This document shows, piece by piece, positions 1 through 28,373 of a stretch of 28,373 nucleotides of DNA (positions within the stretch are counted from its first letter, which is position 1; each line of letters opens with the position of its first letter). The notes beneath the pieces were generated by a model. That model made no database searches and was not told where the DNA came from. It saw only the letters and a program-made list of their open reading frames with translations. Source of the stretch: a virus; IMG/VR virus record IMGVR_UViG_3300025120_000398, positions 1 through 28,373 of that record; one strand, given 5' to 3'. The position numbers and the translations under genes were made by a program.

Positions 1-124
1 AGAACCATTCCAAGAAAGATTTGATAATTTACTTTGTGGTTACGTTTTTCAGATTGGGATCCTAGTACAAAATGACTTCCAAACTTGTACAATACCAGTA
101 ACTCAAGCAGGAGCAGGATATTAG
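1..124 (+). CDS. Virion protein, C-terminal part (gene wraps from window end)
   Basis: The reading frame is open from base 2 to the TAG at 122-124 and has no start codon here, so this is the 3' end of a gene. The 40 residues visible (EPFQERFDNL at the start, IPVTQAGAGY at the end) continue exactly in frame from the gene that begins at 27941, if the last five bases of the window (agaac) are overlaid on the first five. The joined protein would be 183 residues. It sits between the tail-assembly chaperone and a gp10-like tail-completion protein, which fits a head-tail joining or tail-terminator role. That role is inferred from position only; I do not recognise a catalytic motif. Confidence 0.75.
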   Translation, partial: EPFQERFDNLLCGYVFQIGILVQNDFQTCTIPVTQAGAGY

Positions 125-6232: not shown

Positions 6233-7972
6233 ATGGCAAAAGAAGTATTAGAAATGGAGGTTAAGTCCAATATAAAATCAGTAACTAAAGAAACAGATGC
6301 ACTTGGTAAAAGTATAGGTAAGGCTAGTAATGATACTAAAGATTTAGATAAAGGATTAGAAGCTACAGGAAAATCAGGAAGTAAAGGGTTTAAAGCAATA
6401 GGAACAGCAGTTAAAGGTTTTGGAACAGCGTTAAAAGCAGCAGGGATAGGCTTAATTGTAGCTTTATTTGTTACTCTTAAAGAAGCACTAGAAAGAAATC
6501 AAAAAGTAATGAATACTGTTAATACTATTATGAGTACAGTATCAACAACCTTTAATCAAGTTGCAGATGTTCTAACAGATGTTGTTAGTTGGGTAACACA
6601 ATCAACAGATAGATTTGATGGACTTGGTAAAGTAATGGGTGGAATTGGTACTCTTATTCTTACACCATTTAAAAACACATTTTTACAAATTAAATTAGCA
6701 GTTTTAGGTGTACAACTTGCTTGGGAACAAAGTTTTTTTGGTGGTAAAGGTGAAGATTTAGCAAGAATAAATGAATTACAAACTAGCATAATAGAAACAG
6801 GAAGTGCTATAAAACAAGTTGGGGTTGATGCTTTAAATGCAGGTAAAGATATAATAACTAATTTTGGAGATGCTGTTGGTGAGATAGGAGCTATGGGAAA
6901 AATCGCTTTTGATGGAATTAGTGACATAAGTATAAAAGCAAATATAGAATTAGCAAAGGCTACAACTGCTGCTCAAAATAGCTCTAAATTAGCAGAAGCA
7001 GCAATACAAGGTTTAATTGAAAAGAATGACAAATTAGCCGAAACTCAAAGACAAATTAGAGATGATGAAACCAAAACTTTTGCTGAAAGAATAGAAGCTA
7101 ATAACGAATTAAATAATATTTTAGATAAACAAGAACAAGAGATGCTAAAATTAGCAGATACTAGAGTTGCTTCAGCAGCACTAGAATTGTCTGCAAATAA
7201 AGAAAATGTAGATTTACAAGTTGCATATCAACAAACATTAAATGATAGAGCAGGAGTTGAAGCACAAATAGCAGGATTCAGAAGTGAGCAAATGACTAAT
7301 GAAGTTTCTTTAGATAAAGAATTATTAGAAATAAAAAACCAGTTAAGAGTTGAAGCCTTAGAAGGAATGGCAAGGGAGTTAGAAGAATTAAAAATTGGGT
7401 ATGATGCACAGGTTGAAATGGCAAGAAAATCAGGTGTTGATATAACTGAAATTACAGCACAATATGAAAAGGAGCAATCCAAAATAAAAATAGCAAATGC
7501 TAAGGCTACATCAGATAGTATTAAAACTATAGATGATAAATTAGCAGATACAAAAAAGAAAACGCTTGAGATGGGAGCAGCAGCAGCTATGAAAATTGCA
7601 GGAGAAGGTTCTGCTATAGGAAAGTCTGTAGCAGTAGCTATGGCTATTATGAATACAAAAGAAGCGGTTACTGCTGCTTTAGGTGCTAAACCTTACGGCC
7701 CTTGGAATATTGCTCAAGCAGTTGCTACTGGTATATTTGGAATGACACAAGTACAGGGAATATTATCTACACCAACTCCTGGTGGAGGTGGAGGTGGCTC
7801 AGCAGGAAGTATAGGTGCAGCTCCACAAACCCCTGCACCACAAATGACTTCAGGAGCTTTTGATTTGTCTGGTGGAGTAGCTCCAGATCCTGTCCAGGCT
7901 TTTGTAATTACAGATTCCATGACAAATTCTCAGAACCAGCTTGCTAACATAAGAAGAAGAGCAACAATCTAA
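6233..7972 (+). CDS. Tape measure protein
   Basis: A 579-residue, largely helical protein with an extended charged N-terminus, a hydrophobic segment at about 66-82 (TALKAAGIGLIVALFVT) and long coiled-coil-like stretches (about 235-440). A second hydrophobic region (about 450-510) ends in a proline/glycine linker with six consecutive glycines, and the basic tail is NIRRRATI, an ending I recognise from Bacteroidota-phage tape measures. Tape measures set tail length and can insert into the host membrane. At roughly 1.5 angstrom per residue, the length predicts a tail of about 85-90 nm. It lies after the fibre gene rather than before the tail tip, which is unusual. Confidence 0.85.
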   Translation: MAKEVLEMEVKSNIKSVTKETDALGKSIGKASNDTKDLDKGLEATGKSGSKGFKAIGTAVKGFGTALKAAGIGLIVALFVTLKEALERNQKVMNTVNTIMSTVSTTFNQVADVLTDVVSWVTQSTDRFDGLGKVMGGIGTLILTPFKNTFLQIKLAVLGVQLAWEQSFFGGKGEDLARINELQTSIIETGSAIKQVGVDALNAGKDIITNFGDAVGEIGAMGKIAFDGISDISIKANIELAKATTAAQNSSKLAEAAIQGLIEKNDKLAETQRQIRDDETKTFAERIEANNELNNILDKQEQEMLKLADTRVASAALELSANKENVDLQVAYQQTLNDRAGVEAQIAGFRSEQMTNEVSLDKELLEIKNQLRVEALEGMARELEELKIGYDAQVEMARKSGVDITEITAQYEKEQSKIKIANAKATSDSIKTIDDKLADTKKKTLEMGAAAAMKIAGEGSAIGKSVAVAMAIMNTKEAVTAALGAKPYGPWNIAQAVATGIFGMTQVQGILSTPTPGGGGGGSAGSIGAAPQTPAPQMTSGAFDLSGGVAPDPVQAFVITDSMTNSQNQLANIRRRATI

Positions 7973-7982
7973 AATCAAATAT
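7966..7982 (+). repeat. Intergenic repeat AATCTAAAATCAAATA, copy 1
   Basis: The sequence at the end of the tape measure gene and just after its stop matches two later gene boundaries (8528 and 9828), apart from one missing A. It is followed by a copy of the TTCTATTATATARTA element. Confidence 0.6.
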
Positions 7983-7993
7983 AACTAACAAAA

Positions 7994-8008
7994 TTCTATT
8001 ATATAATA
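7994..8008 (+). promoter_or_regulatory. Repeated late element TTCTATTATATAATA, copy 1 (putative late promoter)
   Basis: One of five near-identical 15-base elements, each located just before a block of late genes. Its core, TATTATATAATA, is a perfect 12-base inverted repeat. Here it ends directly at the ATG of the Cys-rich head gene (8008). Conservation in otherwise unconstrained A/T-rich gaps, and a copy directly behind a terminator at 12.2 kb, argue for a promoter. An operator or a translation signal is an alternative. Confidence 0.6.
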
Positions 8009-9827: not shown

Positions 9828-9844
9828 AATCTAAAAATCAAATA
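9828..9844 (+). repeat. Intergenic repeat AATCTAAAAATCAAATA, copy 3
   Basis: Third copy of the boundary repeat, immediately after the helical-module gene. Together with the following TAACTATTCTATTATATAATA it aligns with the region 7966-8008 over about 43 bases with a few indels. Confidence 0.6.
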
Positions 9845-9856
9845 AATAAATAACTA

Positions 9857-9871
9857 TTCTATTATATAATA
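9857..9871 (+). promoter_or_regulatory. Repeated late element TTCTATTATATAATA, copy 2 (putative late promoter)
   Basis: Identical to the copies at 7994 and 25481. It lies 41 bases before the ATG of the scaffold-like gene, whereas the other copies are 14-17 bases from a start. This larger distance argues against a simple ribosome-binding role and fits a promoter for the scaffold and capsid genes. Confidence 0.6.
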
Positions 9872-12750: not shown

Positions 12751-13035
12751 ATGGCAATAGAAAACGTACAACAATTATTAACAGAACAATTAGGAAAGCA
12801 TAGATGTGATGTTATTACAACAACTGCAATGACTGGCAAAGATTATTATGCTATTCATTTTGTAACTGAAAGCGTTATAGCTTCAATAGCAGCTTCTAAT
12901 ATACAAACAGGCACAGGAAGTGCAGCAGCTTCACTACACACGACTATAGCGGCAGGAACTACTTTATTCCTTCAATGTACAGCGATTACTTTAACGAGTG
13001 GATTGGCTATCTGTTACTATGATCAAGTAATATAA
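12751..13035 (+). CDS. Small virion-associated protein (94 aa)
   Basis: A 94-residue protein, rich in T, A, S and I, with four cysteines spread across it and a hydrophobic beta-strand pattern (TTLFLQCTAITLTSGLAICYY). It overlaps the next gene by one base (TAATG). It may be a small beta-sandwich domain of a spike or decoration complex with the LamG protein that follows. There is no signal peptide and no known motif. Confidence 0.55.
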   Translation: MAIENVQQLLTEQLGKHRCDVITTTAMTGKDYYAIHFVTESVIASIAASNIQTGTGSAAASLHTTIAAGTTLFLQCTAITLTSGLAICYYDQVI

Positions 13036-13802
13036 TGAAAATTTTAAAATTAGGACAAATGCTAGGGGGTTCTAATGCTCCAAGTGCAGCAGGTTTTGAG
13101 AATCTTTATTCTTTGCACTTTGATGGTAGTAACTATGTGCAATTTTCAGATAAAGATGTATTTACTATAAATGATTCAGGAGCGAATAGAGGTATGACTT
13201 GGAGTGCTTGGGTAAGACCTGATGCTTCTAATAAAGATATATTAACTAAATATGATGGGGGTGGTAAAGAATGGAAGTTAAGAGTAGGTAAAGGTTCTAG
13301 GCTTGAACTGCAAATATTTGGAAATGATTCTATTACTATTAGTCAACTTCTAGTAACAGATGTAGTTAATATTATAAATGGTGGTTGGCATCACGTTGCA
13401 GTAACCTATAATTTAGGTTCTACTTCTTCATCTTTTGTAGCTTTTGTTGATGGTGTTCAATATTCTCTTGCTCTAGGTAATGCTACCTATAATTCAGCAG
13501 GAACTTGGAGTGCTTCTATTAATACTAATGCAAAAATGGTTTTAGCAAACTCTTCTTATGAAGGTAGAATAGATGAAGTAGCTATATTTGATGATGCCTT
13601 GCACGGATCTGTAATTGCTTCTATTTATAATAGTGGAGTTCCTAATGATATTTCAGGACTTGATTACTTAATAGGATGGTGGCGAAATGGTGATCCAACA
13701 GGTACAGGAGCTTATCCTACTATTGTAGATCAAAGCACAAATAGTAACGATGGAACAATGACAGGAATGGCTTCAGGAGATATTGTAACTGATGTACCTT
13801 AA
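13035..13802 (+). CDS. LamG/concanavalin-A-like fold virion protein
   Basis: Residues about 25-190 show the LamG-like jelly-roll pattern: LHFDGSNYVQF (27-37), MTWSAWVRP (54-62), GGWHHVAVTYN (116-126), VAFVDGVQYS (135-144) and GRIDEVAIFDDAL (177-189). The last of these is the typical closing strand of LamG_3 domains. Such domains bind glycans or mediate adhesion and are found on virion surfaces. No signal peptide. It lies among head genes, upstream of the portal and away from the tail fibres, so it may decorate the capsid. The product may attach to host or environmental polysaccharide; the ligand is unknown. Confidence 0.75.
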   Translation: MKILKLGQMLGGSNAPSAAGFENLYSLHFDGSNYVQFSDKDVFTINDSGANRGMTWSAWVRPDASNKDILTKYDGGGKEWKLRVGKGSRLELQIFGNDSITISQLLVTDVVNIINGGWHHVAVTYNLGSTSSSFVAFVDGVQYSLALGNATYNSAGTWSASINTNAKMVLANSSYEGRIDEVAIFDDALHGSVIASIYNSGVPNDISGLDYLIGWWRNGDPTGTGAYPTIVDQSTNSNDGTMTGMASGDIVTDVP

Positions 13803-13813
13803 AAAAATAAAAT

Positions 13814-15805
13814 ATGAAAGATTCACTTATTAATATCAATCTTGAAACAAGTACCGCTCCAGTAGTAGCTGAAGTACGTGGTAAAGATTGGATAGAATAC
13901 GGAGATGCTAATGGAGAATGGAGAAACTTATATCCACAATTTCTTATAGACTTATACTATTCAAGTAGTATAACGGCTGCCATTATAAACGCAACAGCAG
14001 AAATGATTTCTGGAAAAGATATTATTATTGAAGATGAAGAAGATAGAGATTTAGAAGCTAGAGTAAGACTTCAGCATTTTTTAGATAGAGCAAATTCAAA
14101 TGAAACACTTCATGAAGTTTTAGTTAAGGCTTCTTTTGACTTTAAATTGCAAGGTGCTTTTGCTCTTAATATTGTATGGTCAAAAGATAGAACACAAATA
14201 TCAGAAATTTACCATGTTGATGTTTCTAAAATTAGATGTGCAAAGCCTGATGAATTTGGAAAAACTAAAGGATTTTATGTGAGTTCTGATTGGAAAAATA
14301 CGAGAACAAATAAACCTTATTATGTTCCTGCTTTTAATTCTAATGATAGAACTTCAGCAAATCAAATAATGTACTCAGGACTTTACAGTCCAAATATGAA
14401 TAGCTATTATACTCCAGATTACGTGAGTTGTAATAACTGGGCTTTAATTGATTCAAGAGTTTCTGAATTTCATCTTAATAATATTAGTTCTGGTTTTTCA
14501 GGTAGCTTTATGGTCAATTTTTCAAATGGCATTCCAACTGCTGAAGAACGTAACCAGATAGAACAAAGTTTAGCTGCTAAATTCCAAGGGCAAGATAATG
14601 CTGGAAAGCTAATTTTAACCTTCTCAGACGATAAAACAAGAACACCAGAAATAACACCAATAAGTCCTTCAGATTTGGACAAACAATTTTTAGCACTCCA
14701 AGAATTACTCACTTCTAACATCTGTTCAGGACACAGAATTACGAGCAAAACTTTAATGGGATTGGATTCTGGTAATGGATTTTCAAGCAATGCTGACGAA
14801 CTTAATTCTGCTGCTAATTTTTATCATAACACAGTAATTGTTGGATTCCAGAATCAAATATTGAAAGTGTTACACAAAATATTTAAAGTAAACAATATGG
14901 ATATGCCTGTACAGTTTGTTCAGCTTAAACCTATCACTACTAAATTTACAAATCAAGATCTTGCAGGTGTTTTAACTTCTGATGAAATACGTGAAGAAAT
15001 GGGCTACGAGCCTTTAGATGTAGATGTTGAAGTTAGAGAGGACTTTAGTAAAGTTGGTATGATAGATGGAAAACCTGTTTTTAGCACAATAGAAGAAGCT
15101 GAAGCTCATGCAAAGACTTTAGGGTGTGAAGGGTGGCATACGCATCAATACGAAGGTAGAGCTGCTTATATGGCTTGTAAAGACCATTCAGAAGCTACAG
15201 AGCTTTCTAGCTTTATAGAAAAATTTGGTGAAGACATAAACCAAGAATGGGAATTAGTAGAAGAAGAAGTAGTAGATGGCGAACACCAAGATTTTGATTT
15301 TGAAAAAACATTAAATGAAATAGCTAATGAAAAAACAGAGTTAGCTTCTATGCCTAAAGCAATACCTAGTAGAAAATCTGAACAAGATGGAATATCTAAA
15401 AAGACTTATGATTATTTTAGAGTAAGATATGTTTATTCAAAAGATAATTTCTTAACTAACAAATCAGGAACTAGCAGGAATTTTTGTAAGAAAATGGAGT
15501 CAGCTAAAAAAATGTACAGAAAAGAAGATATTGTAAGAACAAAAAGCAATAGTGTAAATCCGGGATTCGGACATAATGGCAAAGATTACAATTTATTTCT
15601 CTATAAAGGAGGACCTCAATGTTTCCATTTTTGGAGTAGAAGAATTTTTAAAACAGTAATTGGAGAATCTAGAACTACAAAGATAGAAGATGCTGATTTG
15701 ATTGGATATACTAAGGCTAAGTCAGAAGGTTTTACTGCTAAAAAGAATGATAAATTAGTAGCAATACCACCAAGAAAAATGAAAAATAACGGATATTATA
15801 ATTAA
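13814..15805 (+). CDS. Portal protein with unusual C-terminal extension
   Basis: Residues about 15-410 form a portal-like protein: RNLYPQFLIDLYYSSSITAAI (38-58), a wing/stem region with HRITSKTLMG (307-316) and the helical LKVLHKIFKV (350-359), then the crown-like end EEMGYEPLD. The portal is the dodecameric DNA gate at the capsid vertex, and terminase docks on it. Residues 411-663 are extra: a GKPVFSTIEEAEAHAKTLGC-type segment with Cys/His residues (419-458), an acidic linker, and a basic module (532-613) with FCKKMESAKKMYRKEDI and FLYKGGPQCFHFWSRR. This module is known from head-associated proteins of Bacteroidota phages. The protein may combine portal and minor-head functions. Confidence 0.8.
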   Translation: MKDSLININLETSTAPVVAEVRGKDWIEYGDANGEWRNLYPQFLIDLYYSSSITAAIINATAEMISGKDIIIEDEEDRDLEARVRLQHFLDRANSNETLHEVLVKASFDFKLQGAFALNIVWSKDRTQISEIYHVDVSKIRCAKPDEFGKTKGFYVSSDWKNTRTNKPYYVPAFNSNDRTSANQIMYSGLYSPNMNSYYTPDYVSCNNWALIDSRVSEFHLNNISSGFSGSFMVNFSNGIPTAEERNQIEQSLAAKFQGQDNAGKLILTFSDDKTRTPEITPISPSDLDKQFLALQELLTSNICSGHRITSKTLMGLDSGNGFSSNADELNSAANFYHNTVIVGFQNQILKVLHKIFKVNNMDMPVQFVQLKPITTKFTNQDLAGVLTSDEIREEMGYEPLDVDVEVREDFSKVGMIDGKPVFSTIEEAEAHAKTLGCEGWHTHQYEGRAAYMACKDHSEATELSSFIEKFGEDINQEWELVEEEVVDGEHQDFDFEKTLNEIANEKTELASMPKAIPSRKSEQDGISKKTYDYFRVRYVYSKDNFLTNKSGTSRNFCKKMESAKKMYRKEDIVRTKSNSVNPGFGHNGKDYNLFLYKGGPQCFHFWSRRIFKTVIGESRTTKIEDADLIGYTKAKSEGFTAKKNDKLVAIPPRKMKNNGYYN

Positions 15806-16368: not shown

Positions 16369-16481
16369 AAAAGCACTATAAAACAAAACCTAAGAATATA
16401 ACTAAATTAAAATCCTACTTGGATAAAAAAACTATAAAAAATGACCGACCTAAAAGACACTCTACAAGTAGGGCTAGCTAA
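16365..16481 (+). CDS. Possible 38-residue basic peptide
   Basis: The ATG overlaps the stop of the connector gene (ATGA), the usual coupling in this genome. The product is strongly basic (lysine and arginine rich) without hydrophobic segments. It overlaps the following holin-like gene by 41 bases in another frame. It could be real and coupled, or a chance frame. Confidence 0.35.
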   Translation: MKKHYKTKPKNITKLKSYLDKKTIKNDRPKRHSTSRAS

Positions 16482-16599
16482 TGGCGTAGGTATTGGATTC
16501 AGTATTATTGATTTCAATGAATACCTTACTCTAATTTCGCTAGTATTAGCGATAGGATTTACAATTTATAAGTTTATGAAATTCAACAAGGATGCCTAA
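16441..16599 (+). CDS. Small holin-like membrane protein (52 aa)
   Basis: Encodes 52 residues beginning MTDLKDTLQVGLANGVGIGF, with a single hydrophobic segment (about 28-43, LTLISLVLAIGFTIY) and a positively charged end (KFMKFNKDA). This layout, size and position among virion-end and lysis genes fit a holin or other small membrane protein of Bacteroidota phages. The product probably sits in the host inner membrane and permeabilises it at lysis. The alternative is an unrelated membrane peptide. Confidence 0.6.
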   Translation: MTDLKDTLQVGLANGVGIGFSIIDFNEYLTLISLVLAIGFTIYKFMKFNKDA

Positions 16600-16723
16600 G
16601 AAAAAAAAGCTAAATAGTTTAAACCCAATTTACAAACCAGAAGCCATAAAAGATGATAAAGTGCTTAGGAAGTTTATTAAAGAAGTTAGGGGTGTTAAAA
16701 TATACGCAACCTATTCAATCTAA
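16592..16723 (+). CDS. Possible 43-residue lysine-rich protein overlapping the next gene
   Basis: The ATG overlaps the stop of the holin-like gene by eight bases. The product begins MPKKKKLNSLNPIYKPEAIK and is basic. It overlaps the first 71 bases of the DUF5675 gene, in a different frame. The clean start and consistent charge make it plausible, but no family is recognised. Confidence 0.4.
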   Translation: MPKKKKLNSLNPIYKPEAIKDDKVLRKFIKEVRGVKIYATYSI

Positions 16724-17135
16724 TTTGGATTCTATCAATCTTCTTCTTATTCGAGATACATTTACAAAAGAATCAACCATTGGAGAGCTTTTCTTAAATG
16801 GCGAAAGGATGTGCGATACCTTAGAATTACCATGGAAAGATAATAATAGAAATATATCTTGTATTCCTGAAGGTGTTTACAAGGTCAGATTAAGACTACC
16901 AAGAGAATCAGCTACTAGAGATTACTTGCATCTTTTAATTCAAGATGTGCCAAACAGAAATTTTATACTTTTTCATCATGGAAATTATGCTAGAGATAGC
17001 AAAGGATGCGTATTGTTGGGTATGGGATCTAAACAAGACTTTGTTGGAAACTCTGTTTTAGCAATGGATTTACTTATCAAAGAAATCATAAATTTGGGTG
17101 GAACAAATATTAATTTAATAATCAAAAATAAATAA
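16653..17135 (+). CDS. DUF5675 family protein, possible cell-wall or lysis factor
   Basis: A 160-residue protein whose domain starts around residue 30. Visible family-type motifs are TLELPWKDN (56-64), SCIPEGVYKV (69-78), ILFHHGNYARDSKGCVLLG (105-123) with His108/His109, Asp115 and Cys119 as candidate active-site residues, and a small C-terminal helix. The HHGN..D..GC arrangement is reminiscent of cysteine L,D-transpeptidase-like folds, but the activity of DUF5675 is not established to my knowledge. It lies in the presumed lysis region next to two small membrane proteins. No signal peptide is visible. Confidence 0.65.
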   Translation: MIKCLGSLLKKLGVLKYTQPIQSNLDSINLLLIRDTFTKESTIGELFLNGERMCDTLELPWKDNNRNISCIPEGVYKVRLRLPRESATRDYLHLLIQDVPNRNFILFHHGNYARDSKGCVLLGMGSKQDFVGNSVLAMDLLIKEIINLGGTNINLIIKNK

Positions 17136-17137
17136 TC

Positions 17138-17332
17138 ATGAAAAATTTTTTATCAAAGTATTTAATCGGACAAATGTTTAAGTCTAAAAAGTTCTGGTAT
17201 GCTGTAAGTTCTGTAGTAGTACCTGCGTTAGTTAAATTTTTAGGTGTAGATGTTGAAACTGCTAACAATCTATTTATAGCACTCCTTACTTTATGTGGCG
17301 CACAAGGACTTGCAGACGTTGCTAAAAAATAG
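17138..17332 (+). CDS. Small holin-like membrane protein (64 aa)
   Basis: A 64-residue protein with a basic N-terminus (MKNFLSKYLIGQMFKSKKFW) and one or two hydrophobic stretches (about 21-35 and 44-60). The second resembles an amphipathic or membrane-embedded helix. It is flanked by the DUF5675 gene and the phosphoesterase gene. It is probably a second holin or holin-accessory protein; the presence of two small membrane proteins in one region is consistent with a holin/antiholin pair, though this is not shown. Confidence 0.6.
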   Translation: MKNFLSKYLIGQMFKSKKFWYAVSSVVVPALVKFLGVDVETANNLFIALLTLCGAQGLADVAKK

Positions 17333-18419
17333 TTTGGCACAAGAAGGAAAAAGACTAAGACTGTCCTCTGAAGAAGTTGAGATAATCAATGAGTTCAGAG
17401 GTCAGGACTTAGCAAACATTAATGGCAATACTGCTTTAGATATACACCTTAAAGAAAGAGGAATAGATAAAAGTGATATTGTAAGTGTTAAGCATTGGCA
17501 AAATATGTCTGGCGATTTACGATTCTCTATAGTTACGAAACAGCAATACGGAACGGATCAAAATGATTTGCTTGAAGATATTAAAAGTCTTATAGAAAAA
17601 CATTCTCCAGAATATCCAAAAATTAAAAGAACTCAAGGTGAACATTTATTAGTAATAAACCCTGCTGACATTCATATAGGCAAACTTGCAGTAGCTTTAG
17701 AAACAGGTGATGAATATAATACTGAGATAGCCTACAATAGAGTTTTAGAGGGTGTTACAGGGCTTATAAGCAAAGCTCAAGGGTTTACTATAGATAAGGT
17801 ATTATTTTGCGTAGGGAATGACATTTTACATATTGATAATGTTTACAATACAACTACAGCAGGAACTCCACAAGATGCTGATGGCAAATGGTGGCAACAC
17901 TTTGAAGTTGCTTTAGAACTATATGTTAAATGTGTTGAAATTCTTAGACAGGTAGCACCTGTAGATATTGTACACTCTATGAGTAACCATGACTATCAGA
18001 GTGGATTCCATTTAGCACATTCATTGAAGGCTTGGTTTAGAAAAGCTGATGATGTTACATTTGATATATCAGTAGCACATAGAAAATATTATAAGTATGG
18101 CTTAAACCTTATAGGGCTTGAGCATGGTGATGGTGCTAAAATGGATAAGCTACCAATGTTAATGGCTAATGAAAAACCAAAAGAATGGTCTGAAACAAAA
18201 TACAGATATTGGTATCTACACCATATACACCATAAAGTTAAATATAAATGGTTAGATGCAAAAGATTTTATAGGTGTAACTGTTGAATATATGCGTTCAC
18301 CATCTGGAACTGATAGTTGGCATAATAGAAAAGGATTCACAGGAGTGCAAAAAGCAGTAGAAGGATTTATACATTCAAAAGAATCTGGACAAATAGCTAG
18401 GCTAGTACATTATTTTTAA
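17295..18419 (+). CDS. Calcineurin-like metallophosphoesterase
   Basis: A 374-residue protein with the ordered metal-binding signatures of the calcineurin-like phosphoesterase superfamily: PADIHIG (D125, H127), VGNDILHIDN (N175, D176, H179), SNHD (N231, H232, D233), LEHGDG (H277) and LHHIHH (H309-H312). Its relatives include SbcD/Mre11-type nucleases and phosphatases. An N-terminal segment (about 20-40) looks helix-turn-helix-like. There is no early ATG. Starts are GTG 17295 (inside the preceding gene) or TTG 17334 (just after it); the TTG is attractive because it avoids the overlap. Substrate is unknown. Confidence 0.75.
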   Translation: MAHKDLQTLLKNSLAQEGKRLRLSSEEVEIINEFRGQDLANINGNTALDIHLKERGIDKSDIVSVKHWQNMSGDLRFSIVTKQQYGTDQNDLLEDIKSLIEKHSPEYPKIKRTQGEHLLVINPADIHIGKLAVALETGDEYNTEIAYNRVLEGVTGLISKAQGFTIDKVLFCVGNDILHIDNVYNTTTAGTPQDADGKWWQHFEVALELYVKCVEILRQVAPVDIVHSMSNHDYQSGFHLAHSLKAWFRKADDVTFDISVAHRKYYKYGLNLIGLEHGDGAKMDKLPMLMANEKPKEWSETKYRYWYLHHIHHKVKYKWLDAKDFIGVTVEYMRSPSGTDSWHNRKGFTGVQKAVEGFIHSKESGQIARLVHYF

Positions 18420-21554: not shown

Positions 21555-21919
21555 GACCTATAAAAACAATGTCAAAACAAGATCTGATATTATGCTCAGT
21601 AGATTTAGTAAGTAAAACTTATGTAGAATTAGGACAAAATAATGTAGAAGAAGAAACTATCGAGCAAATGTCAAAAAGTCTAGCTAGTGATTTATTTAGG
21701 ATGTACAAAAATTTTTACTTTGAAGATGCAGAAAAAGCTTTTAATTTAGGAGTAAGAAGCCCTATGAAAAGTGATTTTGTACATTTAACTATACCTCTAT
21801 ATATAAAATGGCTAAGACAGCATATAGATTTAATTTGGGATGCAAGATCAAGAGTAGATAAAGGAGAAGATCCACGACAAGTGCCTAATTATAGACCAGA
21901 ACCAAAACTATTAAAATGA
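21551..21919 (+). CDS. Replication-associated protein of unknown function (122 aa)
   Basis: A 122-residue, mostly helical protein coupled to the replisome-organizer gene by an ATGA overlap. It has an N-terminal region of mixed charge and a C-terminal conserved-looking segment with YIKWLRQHIDLIWDARSRVD. No ATPase motif is seen, so I cannot call it a helicase loader, although position fits a helper of the replication protein. Function unknown. Confidence 0.55.
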   Translation: MRPIKTMSKQDLILCSVDLVSKTYVELGQNNVEEETIEQMSKSLASDLFRMYKNFYFEDAEKAFNLGVRSPMKSDFVHLTIPLYIKWLRQHIDLIWDARSRVDKGEDPRQVPNYRPEPKLLK

Positions 21920-22005
21920 AGATACTAACAGCAATTTGGTTATTAATAATAATAGCCTGTATTTTAGAAGGAATATTTTGTACTAAATTTGAAGAAGAAT
22001 TATGA
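21916..22005 (+). CDS. Possible 29-residue membrane peptide
   Basis: The ATG overlaps the preceding stop (ATGA). The product begins MKILTAIWLLIIIACILEG, a strong hydrophobic segment, followed by an acidic tail. The shape fits a tiny membrane-anchored peptide, or a lipoprotein-like leader, but the cysteine is not in a canonical lipobox. Confidence 0.45.
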   Translation: MKILTAIWLLIIIACILEGIFCTKFEEEL

Positions 22006-25096: not shown

Positions 25097-25479
25097 TGAA
25101 TTTCGTAATTAATAATAATCAAGATAAACAAAGTCTTATAAATTATCTAAAGGAATTAAAAAGCAATTACATAGTTAGTGTAAAGAAACAAAGAAACAAT
25201 AGAAGTAATATGCAAAACAATTACTATTGGGCTTGTATAGTACAACCATTAGGGGATTCACTTGGTTACTTTCCAGATGAAATGCATGATGCTTTAAAAG
25301 TAAAGTTCTCAAGTGAGTGGCAAAGCATAGAAGTAAACGATAAACAGATAGGACTGCAAACTGTAAATAGTACAGCTAGAATGAATACAAAAGAATTTGA
25401 AGTATATGCTGACCAAATTAGGATATGGGCTTTAACTGAACTAGGAATCAGGCTAATGCTTCCAAATGAATACGAATAA
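25096..25479 (+). CDS. ninB: NinB-like recombination protein
   Basis: A 127-residue protein with a GTG start (25096) overlapping the previous stop TAG. It carries NinB-type motifs: KKQRNNRSNMQNNYYWACIV (34-53), YFPDEMHDALKVKF (58-71) and TKEFEVYADQIRIWALTELG (98-117). In lambda, NinB (Orf) is a recombination mediator that binds single-stranded DNA. Here it stands with NinG, the annealing protein and the SSB-like protein as a recombination set. It is followed by the late element and TerS, marking the end of the early block. Confidence 0.7.
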   Translation: MNFVINNNQDKQSLINYLKELKSNYIVSVKKQRNNRSNMQNNYYWACIVQPLGDSLGYFPDEMHDALKVKFSSEWQSIEVNDKQIGLQTVNSTARMNTKEFEVYADQIRIWALTELGIRLMLPNEYE

Positions 25480-25480
25480 T

Positions 25481-25494
25481 TTCTATTATATAAT
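25481..25494 (+). promoter_or_regulatory. Repeated late element TTCTATTATATAAT, copy 4 (putative late promoter)
   Basis: Identical to copies 1 and 2 through the ATG. It directly abuts the TerS ATG (25495) and begins the packaging/tail transcript. No terminator is visible before it. Confidence 0.6.
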
Positions 25495-25848
25495 ATGGAA
25501 ACAGAACAAAAGAGGACACAGGAAGGAAAAAAGAAGCTACTAGCGGCACTAGAGATGTCATTAGGTATAGTAACAGAAGCTTGTGAAAAAGCAGACATTA
25601 CAAGAAGCCGACACTATGCTTGGATGCAAAGTGATGAAGAGTATAAGAAAGCAGTAGATGATATTGATAGTAAGTTTATAGACTTTGCCGAAACAAGTCT
25701 AAAGAAACAAATCAAGGAGGGCAACACAACTGCAACTACTTTCTTTTTAAGAACAAGAGGAAGAAGAAGAGGTTATAATGAAAAGCAAGAAATAGATTTA
25801 ACTTCAGGAGATGAAAGAATAAAAATAAATATCAATCTTGGAGATTAA
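25495..25848 (+). CDS. terS: Terminase small subunit
   Basis: A 117-residue protein starting right behind the late element. Residues about 22-45 form a helix-turn-helix (MSLGIVTEACEKADITRSRH), then a helical oligomerisation region (EYKKAVDDIDSKFIDFAETS), and a basic tail with FLRTRGRRRGYNEKQEID. This matches small terminase subunits of the phBC6A51-like type, which recognise the packaging site and load the large subunit. It is followed by TerL with an 11-base overlap, which is the expected arrangement. Confidence 0.8.
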   Translation: METEQKRTQEGKKKLLAALEMSLGIVTEACEKADITRSRHYAWMQSDEEYKKAVDDIDSKFIDFAETSLKKQIKEGNTTATTFFLRTRGRRRGYNEKQEIDLTSGDERIKININLGD

Positions 25849-27148
25849 GCCTGAATTTACTAAGACTCAAAAGGAATGTCTAAAATACTTATTTGATAAT
25901 AAGACTAAAGAAGTATTATTTGGCGGTGCAGCAGGAGGTGGTAAATCTTGGGTGGGTGTAAGTTATTTAATCTTGATGGCTCTTCAATATCCTAAGACTA
26001 GATACTTAATGGGTCGTTCTAAATTAGATGCTTTAAAAAAGACTACATTAAATACTTTCTTTGAAGTATGTACAGCATGGAATTTAAAAGCTATTAAAGA
26101 TTATACCTTTAATGGATCAAGCAATGTAATAACCTTTTACAATGGCTCTGAGATAATATTAAAAGACTTGTTCTTATATCCAAGTGATAGGAACTTTGAT
26201 AGCTTAGGTTCCTTAGAAATAACATCAGCTTTTATAGATGAAGCAAATCAAATAACTGAAAAGGCAAAAAATGTAGTAGCTTCAAGGCTTAGATATAAGC
26301 TAGATGAAAATGATTTAATTCCTAAGATGCTAATGACGTGCAACCCTGCTAAGAACTGGGTTTACTCTGAATACTACAGACCTGCAAAAGATAACACTAT
26401 AAAACCCTACAGAAAGTTTATACAATCTTTAGTGGGTGATAATACCTATATTTCAAAGCACTATGAAACTCAGTTGTTTCAATTAGATGAATTAAGTAAA
26501 CAAAGACTTCTATTTGGAAATTGGGAATATGATGTAAGCAATGATAACTTAATTGAATATGATGCAATACTTAGCCTATTCAATCAACAAGGAATAGATG
26601 GTGATAAATACATAACTTGTGATGTGGCACGTTTTGGAGCTGATAAGACAGTTATAATGCTATGGCAAGGGCTACACCTTAGATATGTTAGAACGTTGCT
26701 TAAATCGGCTGTAAATGATGTTGTGGATGAGATTAAGAAGCTACAACAAGAGAACCAAGTAAACCTTACTAATATTATAGTTGATGAAGATGGTGTTGGT
26801 GGGGGTGTTAAAGATTATTTAAGGTGCAAAGGCTTTACTAATAATGCAAAGGCTTTAAAGAGTGAAAACTATCAAAACTTAAAAACCCAATGCTATTACA
26901 AATTAGCTGATCTAATTAATAAAGGTCAAATAGGTATAAGTTGCTCGGATGTTAATGTAAAGAATTACATAATAGAAGAGTGCGAACAAGTAAGAACAAA
27001 GGATGCTGACAAAGATAATAAGCTACAAATAATACAAAAGGAAACAGTCAAATCTATATTAGGTCGTTCACCTGATTACTCAGATGCTTTAGCAATGAGA
27101 ATGTATTATGAAATAGATAACAATTTTGGGAAGTATTTTGTACACTAA
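25838..27148 (+). CDS. terL: Terminase large subunit
   Basis: A 436-residue packaging motor. Walker A is GGAAGGGKS (29-37); Walker B is AFIDEA (131-136, D134/E135); the coupling motif is TCNP (167-170). The C-terminal RNase H-like nuclease shows CDVARFGADK (261-270, D262), IIVDEDGVGGG (313-323) and YSDALAM (414-420, D416). It cuts and pumps phage DNA into the prohead. No early ATG exists. A TTG start at 25838, inside the end of TerS, gives full family-length protein. The overlap suggests coupling. Confidence 0.93.
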   Translation: MEIKPEFTKTQKECLKYLFDNKTKEVLFGGAAGGGKSWVGVSYLILMALQYPKTRYLMGRSKLDALKKTTLNTFFEVCTAWNLKAIKDYTFNGSSNVITFYNGSEIILKDLFLYPSDRNFDSLGSLEITSAFIDEANQITEKAKNVVASRLRYKLDENDLIPKMLMTCNPAKNWVYSEYYRPAKDNTIKPYRKFIQSLVGDNTYISKHYETQLFQLDELSKQRLLFGNWEYDVSNDNLIEYDAILSLFNQQGIDGDKYITCDVARFGADKTVIMLWQGLHLRYVRTLLKSAVNDVVDEIKKLQQENQVNLTNIIVDEDGVGGGVKDYLRCKGFTNNAKALKSENYQNLKTQCYYKLADLINKGQIGISCSDVNVKNYIIEECEQVRTKDADKDNKLQIIQKETVKSILGRSPDYSDALAMRMYYEIDNNFGKYFVH

Positions 27149-27164
27149 ACTAAAAACAACTAAT

Positions 27165-27178
27165 TTCTATTATATAGT
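27165..27178 (+). promoter_or_regulatory. Repeated late element TTCTATTATATAGT, copy 5 (putative late promoter)
   Basis: Same 14-base spacing to the ATG as copies 1 and 4, and shares the G variant with copy 3. It precedes the tail-chaperone gene and thus starts the tail transcript. Confidence 0.6.
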
Positions 27179-27850
27179 ATGAAAGTCAAAGTAAAGAAGG
27201 ATGGCAAGACTAAAGAATTTAAGCTAATAAGTAAATGGTCAGATGTTACGCTTGAAAAATGGCTTAAACTTATAGACTTTCAAGCAGGGAGCAAAACAAA
27301 AGAAGCAAAAGAAACAATAGCAGCTTTGTCAGATATACCTAAGCAATTAATAAAAGAGCTTAGTATAAAAGATGTAGCAGTTATAATGAGTAGGATAGCA
27401 GAGTTACAACAGCAACAAGATAGTTCTTTAAAAAAAACAGTAAAGATAAATGGTATTAAATATGGATTCCATCCAGACCTTGACTCAATAACTTTAGGCG
27501 AATATGCAGATATTGAAACTCTTATAAAGAATGGAATAGAAACTAATATGCCAGAAATGATGGCAATTTTATTTAGACCAATAATATTAGAAAAGAATGG
27601 AGTATATTCCATAGATGCTTATGATGGTGATATTAGGATGAGAACTGAAGAAATGAAACAAATGTCAGCAGAACAAGTTCAAGCTGCCCTTTTTTTTTTC
27701 TACAATTCAGGGAAAAAATTGTCAATGATTTTGCAATCATATTCGATGGATCTGCTAAAGGAAATGAATCAGCAATTGCCTCAGAATCCTTTGCCGAAAA
27801 GTGGAACTGGTTCGGAGTTTTCTATCGGCTCACAAATGGAGAAATTGTAA
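27179..27850 (+). CDS. Tail assembly chaperone, unshifted product (gpG-like, 223 aa)
   Basis: A 223-residue product. The N-terminal 170 residues are alpha/beta (KVKKDGKTKEFKLISKWSDV, then SAEQVQAALFFFYNSGKK). Proteins of this layout occur as tail-assembly chaperones in Bacteroidota phages. After the T10 run (27690-27699), the frame continues for about 50 residues rich in Q, M, L and S. An alternative frame after the run encodes the GT-like extension. Position before the structural tail genes agrees with the G/GT pair of lambda, which coats the tape measure during tail assembly. Confidence 0.75.
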   Translation: MKVKVKKDGKTKEFKLISKWSDVTLEKWLKLIDFQAGSKTKEAKETIAALSDIPKQLIKELSIKDVAVIMSRIAELQQQQDSSLKKTVKINGIKYGFHPDLDSITLGEYADIETLIKNGIETNMPEMMAILFRPIILEKNGVYSIDAYDGDIRMRTEEMKQMSAEQVQAALFFFYNSGKKLSMILQSYSMDLLKEMNQQLPQNPLPKSGTGSEFSIGSQMEKL

Positions 27851-27957
27851 ACTTGGAAAGAATAACAAAACTTAGCTTATTAGAATGTTTAACATGGCTA
27901 AGTTATGAAACAGATTTAAACTCACAAAATAAAGTAAAACATGGCAGTCAGCAATAA
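27179..27957 (+). CDS. Tail assembly chaperone, -1 frameshift product (gpGT-like, about 259 aa)
   Basis: At T TTT TTC (27694-27700), a canonical X XXY YYZ heptamer in the zero frame, a slip of one base back opens a frame without stops to TAA 27955-27957. The extension includes EKIVNDFAIIFDGSAKGN, FAEKWNWFGVFYRLTNGEIV and ITKLSLLECLTWLSYE. These resemble the second half of tail chaperones of this phage group and do not look like random translation. It runs 17 bases into the next gene. The alternative is that one base was lost or gained in the T run during sequencing, which would make it a single uninterrupted gene. Confidence 0.75.
27694..27700 (+). promoter_or_regulatory. Slippery heptamer T TTT TTC for -1 frameshifting
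   Basis: Sits at the 3' end of a ten-T run (27690-27699) followed by C. Zero-frame codons are TTT TTC, and both can re-pair as TTT TTT after slipping back. No strong hairpin is evident just downstream, so a stimulatory structure, if any, is weak. Confidence 0.7.
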
Positions 27958-28373
27958 GACATATAACAACGTAATCAATACACTTTTAAGACTCGGTGAA
28001 TATCACGAACAAATAAGCACAACATCTGTTGGCGACATTTGGGAAATTAATCTCGAAAAGATGCAAAAGATGCCTTTGCTTCATATTAATCCAACCTCAG
28101 TAGAAACAGGAGATTCTACTTTAACTTACAATTTCCAAATCTTTATTTGTGACTTAGTATCTGAAAAAGAAAATTGGACACAAAATAATGCAAATGCTAA
28201 ATTTACAAAGCTAGTAAAGACATTAAGTAATGAACAAGATGTATTTAATGAAACACTACAAATTGCAACAGACTTTATAGGTATGTTAAGACATTCAGAA
28301 AGACAATCTTTAAGAGGTGTAAATGATATTAATGCACCTATCTACTTTACACAAGATCAGTTTACTTTAGAAC
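27941..28373 (+). CDS. Virion protein, N-terminal part (gene continues at base 1)
   Basis: Open from ATG 27941 to the window end, 144 complete codons, then one base. The product starts MAVSNKTYNNVINTLLRLGE and has a mixed alpha/beta character with no known motif. If the final AGAAC is overlaid on the initial AGAAC, the frame continues to TAG 122-124 and gives 183 residues with the C-terminus FTLEPFQERFDNLLCGYVFQ... The start overlaps the end of the frameshift product by 17 bases. Position between tail chaperone and gp10-like gene suggests a head-tail or tail-terminator role. Confidence 0.75.
   Translation, partial: MAVSNKTYNNVINTLLRLGEYHEQISTTSVGDIWEINLEKMQKMPLLHINPTSVETGDSTLTYNFQIFICDLVSEKENWTQNNANAKFTKLVKTLSNEQDVFNETLQIATDFIGMLRHSERQSLRGVNDINAPIYFTQDQFTLE
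28369..28373. repeat. Terminal overlap AGAAC (same as bases 1-5)
   Basis: The last five bases equal the first five. On its own this could be chance, but it is the one join that fuses the two gene fragments in frame without a stop. It is most likely an assembly overlap of a circular or permuted molecule. Confidence 0.6.

Follow-up and report, generated by a model that had tools for sequence, protein, structure and literature searches.

The small marine phage represented by the IMG/VR virus record IMGVR_UViG_3300025120_000398 encodes a DUF5675 protein of 160 amino acids, which probably serves as its endolysin-equivalent, a Cys/His enzyme of the YkuD fold that would be released by a holin and act as an L,D-endopeptidase or carboxypeptidase. 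The window, i.e. the whole stretch of DNA that was analysed, is this entire record and comprises 28,373 bases. A preliminary description of the DNA had proposed the DUF5675 protein as a candidate wall-degrading or wall-modifying enzyme. This proposal gained support from the predicted fold, the invariant residues, a holin-like neighbour and the small number of known endolysins in phages carrying DUF5675. Table 1 gives an overview of the genes of the region and of the codons for the two predicted catalytic residues.

Table 1 Features of the DUF5675 region in the window (TM, transmembrane)
Feature	Position	Strand	Basis
Protein of 52 aa with a single predicted TM segment; holin, antiholin or accessory membrane protein	16441..16599	+	hydropathy
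DUF5675 protein, candidate endolysin with predicted L,D-transpeptidase fold	16653..17135	+	PF18925, AlphaFold, VIA-align
Codon of His108, predicted catalytic His	16974..16976	+	invariant; aligned to the YkuD catalytic His
Codon of Cys119, predicted catalytic Cys	17007..17009	+	invariant; aligned to the YkuD catalytic Cys
Candidate holin of 64 aa with a single predicted TM segment	17138..17332	+	hydropathy
Phosphoesterase of a DNA-repair exonuclease family, start codon uncertain	17295..18419	+	phrog_704

Genome completeness and absence of known endolysins

The virus is a tailed phage with genes for terminase, portal, prohead protease and NinG/NinB-type proteins. The last open reading frame leaves the right end of the record and resumes at its left end. 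Comparison of the two ends by eye (window 1-121 and 27941-28373) revealed an overlap of 5 bases, and one late gene is split between them. Homologues of the two window ends adjoin with a one-codon overlap in all relatives with enough flanking sequence (77/77). The record thus represents an essentially complete genome of ~28.4 kb in circularly permuted form, and the lack of a known endolysin applies genome-wide. An incomplete genome as the cause of the missing endolysin is ruled out by the same 77 relatives.

The earlier claim that no known endolysin is encoded anywhere in this DNA was confirmed by a Pfam search of the complete genome. A total of 20 families were matched among the 40 other window proteins, none of them wall-lytic, and no lysozyme, amidase, M15, M23, CHAP or GH19 domain was found in these proteins at E ≤0.01. 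The search covered plus-strand open reading frames of about ≥50 aa, with DUF5675 and the two small membrane proteins scanned separately. Within this Pfam scope, the DUF5675 protein is the sole candidate wall enzyme of the genome.

Among 43 phage records searched, 37 carry DUF5675, each in one copy. Eight endolysin families (Amidase_2, phage lysozyme, M15_4, GH19, M15_3, Amidase_3, M23 and CHAP) were matched over the cut-off in 1 of the 37 DUF5675-positive records versus 4 of the 6 DUF5675-negative controls (Fisher p 0.0006; 0.009 on 16 lineages, which were grouped by eye); given six controls and repeated lineages, this deficit is taken as support and not as proof. The one match among the positive records is a CHAP domain in an open frame of 1139 aa. 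A Glyco_hydro_19 match in W26 was below the cut-off and was left out of the count. The controls comprised seven records, one of which (MG592560) was found to be DUF5675-positive and was moved accordingly. Families outside the 37-versus-6 comparison include GH108, GH25, SLT, NlpC/P60 and glucosaminidase.

The DUF5675 family and its invariant residues

The 160-aa protein matches PF18925 (DUF5675) with an E value of 6.3e-30 and 103.8 bits (curated cut-off 26.7), a family of unknown function in Pfam, as well as phrog_1501 (E 2.5e-26), which has no function assigned. PF03734 (YkuD) is not matched, DUF5675 being the only family that Pfam lists for this protein at E ≤1. NCBIfam gave no match for DUF5675 or for the spanin-like proteins described below. 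A sequence search of solved structures revealed no relatives of DUF5675, the best profile matches being chance matches to coagulation factor X. When the open reading frames of the window were checked for TM segments and lipoboxes, no TM or signal segment was detected in the DUF5675 protein by hydropathy.

Glu58, His108, Asn111, Gly118, Cys119 and Ser134 are invariant in two alignments of DUF5675 relatives (31/31 and 37/37), whose members were picked by tblastn and not by motif. The 117 bacterial DUF5675 sequences of the profile set were fetched by a pattern requiring H, N, G and C; invariance among them is therefore no evidence, and the tblastn alignments alone were used. The preliminary description had pointed to a conserved-looking arrangement HHGN-x3-D-x3-C, which reads HHGN-YAR-D-SKG-C in the window protein. 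This was correct in part: the first His, Asn111, Gly118 and Cys119 are invariant, whereas the second His and the Asp vary. The N-terminal extension of the window protein (window 16653-16731, with a predicted helix at residues 2-13) is missing from many relatives of 134 aa, which start near residue 28. This extension is possibly membrane-active.

DUF5675 occurs in at least 288 of 50,697 phage records. Furthermore, its motif is matched in at least 118 bacterial genome stretches (L196-L313), mostly from Bacteroidota, but also from Nitrosospira, Gilliamella and others. In some of the bacterial loci the open frames extend over 305-390 aa, which suggests fusions.

Predicted fold of the DUF5675 protein

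An AlphaFold model of the window protein, based on 37 aligned sequences, had a mean pLDDT of 87.7, with values per ten-residue block of 94-98 in most of the domain and of 70 in the weakest block. Comparison of this model to the PDB by VIA-align yielded 36 entries at Z ≥5, all of which have the L,D-transpeptidase (YkuD) fold; the next row followed at Z 2.3. These matches include Pgp2 of Campylobacter (Z 10.8, rmsd 2.5, 112 aligned), Csd6 of Helicobacter (Z 9.9, rmsd 2.9, 112 aligned), LdtMt2 (Z 8.9, rmsd 3.1, 104 aligned), Tlde1a (Z 8.8, rmsd 2.9, 112 aligned) and DpaA (Z 8.0, rmsd 3.2, 118 aligned). A second AlphaFold model was led by gp30 of phage phi39:1, which is ~30% identical to the window protein, and reached a pLDDT of 93.7. 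For this model VIA-align yielded 42 entries of the L,D-transpeptidase fold down to Z 6.2, followed by a row at Z 2.9. The Z scores were 11.7 for Pgp2, 10.5 for Csd6, 10.4 for YkuD of B. subtilis, 9.1 for DpaA and 8.2 for Tlde1a. Thus, only enzymes of this fold are found above Z 3 with either model, and the L,D-carboxypeptidases Pgp2 and Csd6 rank first in both.

A Foldseek search of the PDB with the window model gave no match at E ≤0.001 (best E 0.18, unrelated), so the fold assignment is based on VIA-align. On these models, the L,D-transpeptidase (YkuD) fold is a well-supported prediction for the DUF5675 protein. Structure prediction against L,D-transpeptidases and amidases had been suggested in the preliminary description; both models agree with its guess of an L,D-transpeptidase-type fold, and an amidase, DpaA, is among the matches.

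Searching a viral library with the window model retrieved other DUF5675 proteins, including matches inside proteins of 868-1251 aa. The presence of the domain within such large phage proteins suggests a different role there. One DUF5675 match of the same search, from the crAss-like phage cr116_1, is named L,D-carboxypeptidase/transpeptidase.

Comparison of the predicted active site with YkuD enzymes

In a profile-profile comparison, 148 DUF5675 sequences were matched to 12 diverse YkuD sequences with a probability of 80% and a score of 39.4. In the alignment, H108 and C119 coincide with the catalytic residues His and Cys of YkuD, and the IPxGxY stretch of DUF5675 coincides with TPxGxY. The probability varied with the YkuD set and was 80% for the 12 diverse sequences, 27% for the full set and 0.4% for eight close ones. 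When DpaA was added to the 12 YkuD sequences, the score was 38.0, whereas the 100 block-shuffled controls did not exceed 27.4. A single-sequence profile comparison of DUF5675 with DpaA alone gave a probability of 0.4%. From these alignments, His108 and Cys119 are predicted to be the catalytic pair of DUF5675.

The YkuD signature is given as HXX14-17-(S/T)HGCh in the available excerpt of PMC9638812. DUF5675 deviates from this signature, as it reads H108-x7-S116-x-G-C119 and the residue before the Gly is not a His. Its His-to-Cys spacing of 11 residues is below that of the canonical H-x14-17-[ST]-H-G-C, and the second His is absent.

Gene neighbourhood

The preliminary description had placed two small membrane proteins on either side of DUF5675. 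This arrangement was found, with one predicted TM segment in each protein, although the gene for the 52-aa protein lies just outside the region delimited at that time. The 52-aa protein has no Pfam or PHROG match, and for the 64-aa protein NCBIfam gave one chance match far below the cut-off and nothing else.

Neighbouring genes were counted in 80 loci with a close DUF5675 relative, and the denominators refer to the loci with room for the respective neighbour. A homologue of the 64-aa protein is located 3′ of DUF5675 in 72 of 72 relatives, at a distance of ≤18 nt in 70 of them, and a homologue of the 52-aa protein 5′ of DUF5675 in 61 of 79. The phosphoesterase gene adjoins DUF5675 in 12 of 59 relatives. 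According to the difference between 72/72 and 12/59, the conserved unit consists of DUF5675 and the holin-like gene. As the most constant neighbour, the 64-aa protein is the best candidate for the holin, a role inferred from its size and its single TM segment.

The phosphoesterase matches two DNA-repair exonuclease families (phrog_704, E 6.2e-72; phrog_284, E 6.5e-24), and its predicted product is here termed SbcD-like exonuclease. It had been considered as a second candidate for a late or wall-directed function. This was not upheld: on the exonuclease match together with the rare proximity to DUF5675, the phosphoesterase was judged not to belong to the lysis cassette.

For a wider view of TM neighbours, the window and the loci L002-L081 and L086-L108 were evaluated; loci without a qualifying open reading frame, at contig edges or near-identical to others were dropped. 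In the remaining 42 nonredundant viral loci, which are not independent of each other, a TM gene is located directly 5′ of DUF5675 in 30 and directly 3′ in 25, the background being a TM segment in 51 of 455 other small open reading frames. The crAss-like viral loci L099-L102 have no predicted TM neighbour of DUF5675.

Scanning the open reading frames of the window for TM segments and lipoboxes did not reveal a convincing spanin. A 29-aa open reading frame with a lipobox-like start is located at window 21916-22005, and very short open reading frames with TM segments are also present.

DUF5675 in distantly related phages

In the cultured Cellulophaga phage phi39:1, gp30 is preceded by a 33-aa TM protein and followed by two spanin-like open reading frames. 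These two, gp31 and gp32 (L082:20423-20924), overlap and each start with a hydrophobic segment, similar to a pair of i-spanin and o-spanin. As gp32 lacks a lipobox Cys, the spanin pair is a likeness only. One of the two is annotated as putative alpha-amylase. In the deposited record, MS/MS marks for virion proteins are present on gp10-gp12, gp14-gp18 and gp21-gp26, and none on gp27-gp32.

The gene for the DUF5675 protein of phage Ingeline (gp38) is flanked on one side by that of a 44-aa TM protein and on the other by that of a 157-aa protein, which combines a lipobox with a hydrophobic segment at the C-terminus. In the available excerpt of PMC8776804 a unimolecular spanin is annotated for Ingeline and no endolysin is named, and endolysins or candidates are named for the other three Cellulophaga phages. 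In crAss001, PF18925 matches at 26413-26817 (E 2.2e-29), inside gp30, which is located two genes after gp28, annotated as 'lysis regulatory protein/holin'. DUF5675 is also present in two microviruses, each with six annotated genes.

Proposed mechanism and alternative explanations

As a small soluble enzyme, DUF5675 would wait in the cytoplasm. Hydropathy gives no sign of a TM or signal segment, so that passage through the inner membrane would depend on a holin. This part would be played by the small membrane protein encoded next to DUF5675: once it had opened the inner membrane, DUF5675 would enter the periplasm. Enzymes of the YkuD fold act through a Cys acyl-enzyme on the L-centre of meso-diaminopimelate (mDAP). 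In DUF5675, Cys119, activated by His108, would attack the amide bond on this L-centre in the stem peptide. Water, and not an acceptor in a transfer reaction, would then free the acyl-enzyme, resulting in L,D-carboxypeptidase or L,D-endopeptidase action. Hydrolysis of the mDAP-D-Ala bond in a donor stem with a 4-3 cross-link would open that cross-link; by this cut, or by one at an mDAP-mDAP bond, the thin wall would be loosened, which would presumably lead to lysis. The excerpt of PMC12729407 describes a YkuD-type enzyme of C. difficile with L,D-endopeptidase action, and for Tlde1a the excerpt of PMC9638812 reports toxicity together with L,D-carboxypeptidase and exchange activity.

The fold is common to transpeptidases and the amidase DpaA, and it would also suit a wall modifier instead of an endolysin. 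Such an enzyme would edit stem peptides by D-amino-acid exchange or cross-linking, or detach wall-bound outer-membrane proteins like DpaA, and thereby aid lysis or alter the infected cell, which would be broken by membrane proteins or host autolysins. The dual activity of Tlde1a on the same fold (excerpt of PMC9638812) fits this explanation, as does the need for some source of outer-membrane release in a window with no recognised spanin. Nevertheless, most of the DUF5675 phages tested have no other known lytic enzyme and the closest structural matches are hydrolases, namely L,D-carboxypeptidases, which makes a pure wall modifier unlikely.

It is quite improbable that DUF5675 is a virion-associated enzyme producing a local wall hole during entry. 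Its gene follows just behind tail or structural genes in several phages and the domain is part of large proteins in some, but gp30 of phi39:1 carries no MS/MS virion mark, and the window protein is small, stands alone and is encoded next to holin-like genes. Many window proteins are unannotated and the elimination reaches no further than the libraries used, so that another, unrecognised protein might be the lysis enzyme, with DUF5675 having a different function and its position being coincidental. The predicted fold keeps the catalytic residues, however, and the same gene association recurs in unrelated phages; we regard this as the least probable explanation.

Beyond a role of DUF5675 as holin-released wall hydrolase, the chances are about even that the family represents a distinct, stand-alone class of endolysin. 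This would be a minimal Cys/His L,D-endopeptidase with a short His-Cys spacing and without the second His, which would have displaced lysozymes and amidases as sole wall cutter in unrelated phages, including marine flavophage relatives, crAss-like phages, many vibriophages and six-gene microviruses.

Relation to known enzymes

Pgp2 and Csd6, the best structural matches of both models, share the Cys/His site with DUF5675. They differ in being bacterial cell-shape enzymes with 286-316 residues in the PDB chains, and the identity is 11-18%. Tlde1a, a T6SS antibacterial effector with the L,D-transpeptidase fold, likewise shows a short spacing (H121, S128, C131) according to the excerpt of PMC9638812. 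Unlike DUF5675, it has a second His (H129) in the same excerpt. It also has a capping subdomain and is delivered by the T6SS, in contrast to the holin release proposed for DUF5675. DpaA of E. coli K-12 is a YkuD-fold hydrolase with PEGxYxV and H135 followed by S140-x-G-C143, and it resembles DUF5675 both in the short spacing and in having no second His; its Cys143 is described as catalytic in the excerpt of PMC10653827. In contrast to the action proposed for DUF5675, DpaA is an amidase that cleaves a lipoprotein from the wall, and it has a signal peptide.

YkuD is already a catalytic class of phage lytic proteins, with 10 proteins in PhaLP according to the excerpt of PMC8310338, where they are listed by PF03734, PF10908 and cd16913 and not by PF18925. 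The class is also included among phage lytic enzymes in PMC5017753, and YkuD is part of one multidomain gut endolysin (PMC13284279). In the open-access literature searched, we found no report of DUF5675 as an endolysin; the family is merely listed there, without a function. Gp30 of crAss001 and its crAss-like homologues belong to the same family PF18925 and are labelled 'L,D-carboxypeptidase/transpeptidase' or 'transpeptidase catalytic domain protein'. The window protein is ~28% identical to crAss001 gp30 over the matched part, and the label of gp30 is an annotation only. The present assignment is thus partly anticipated by these labels. New are the link of the DUF5675 family to the YkuD fold, the variant active site and the endolysin position in several unrelated phages. 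A function for DUF5675 would supply the missing lysis enzyme in Ingeline, phi39:1 and crAss-like phages; the site cut by this enzyme would differ from those cut by lysozymes and amidases.

Other features of the genome

A repeated element around TTCTATTATATAATA precedes several gene starts (7971-8008, 9834-9871, 25464-25513 and 27142-27197) and possibly serves this phage group as a promoter or as a translation signal. In the portal-family protein encoded at 13814-15805, a downstream stretch matches DUF3721 with E 1.3e-5, just under the cut-off, so that a fusion of a portal with additional domains is possible. The gene immediately preceding that of the portal (13035-13802) encodes a Laminin_G_3 (lectin-like) protein, the C-terminal part of which matches a tail-terminator PHROG.
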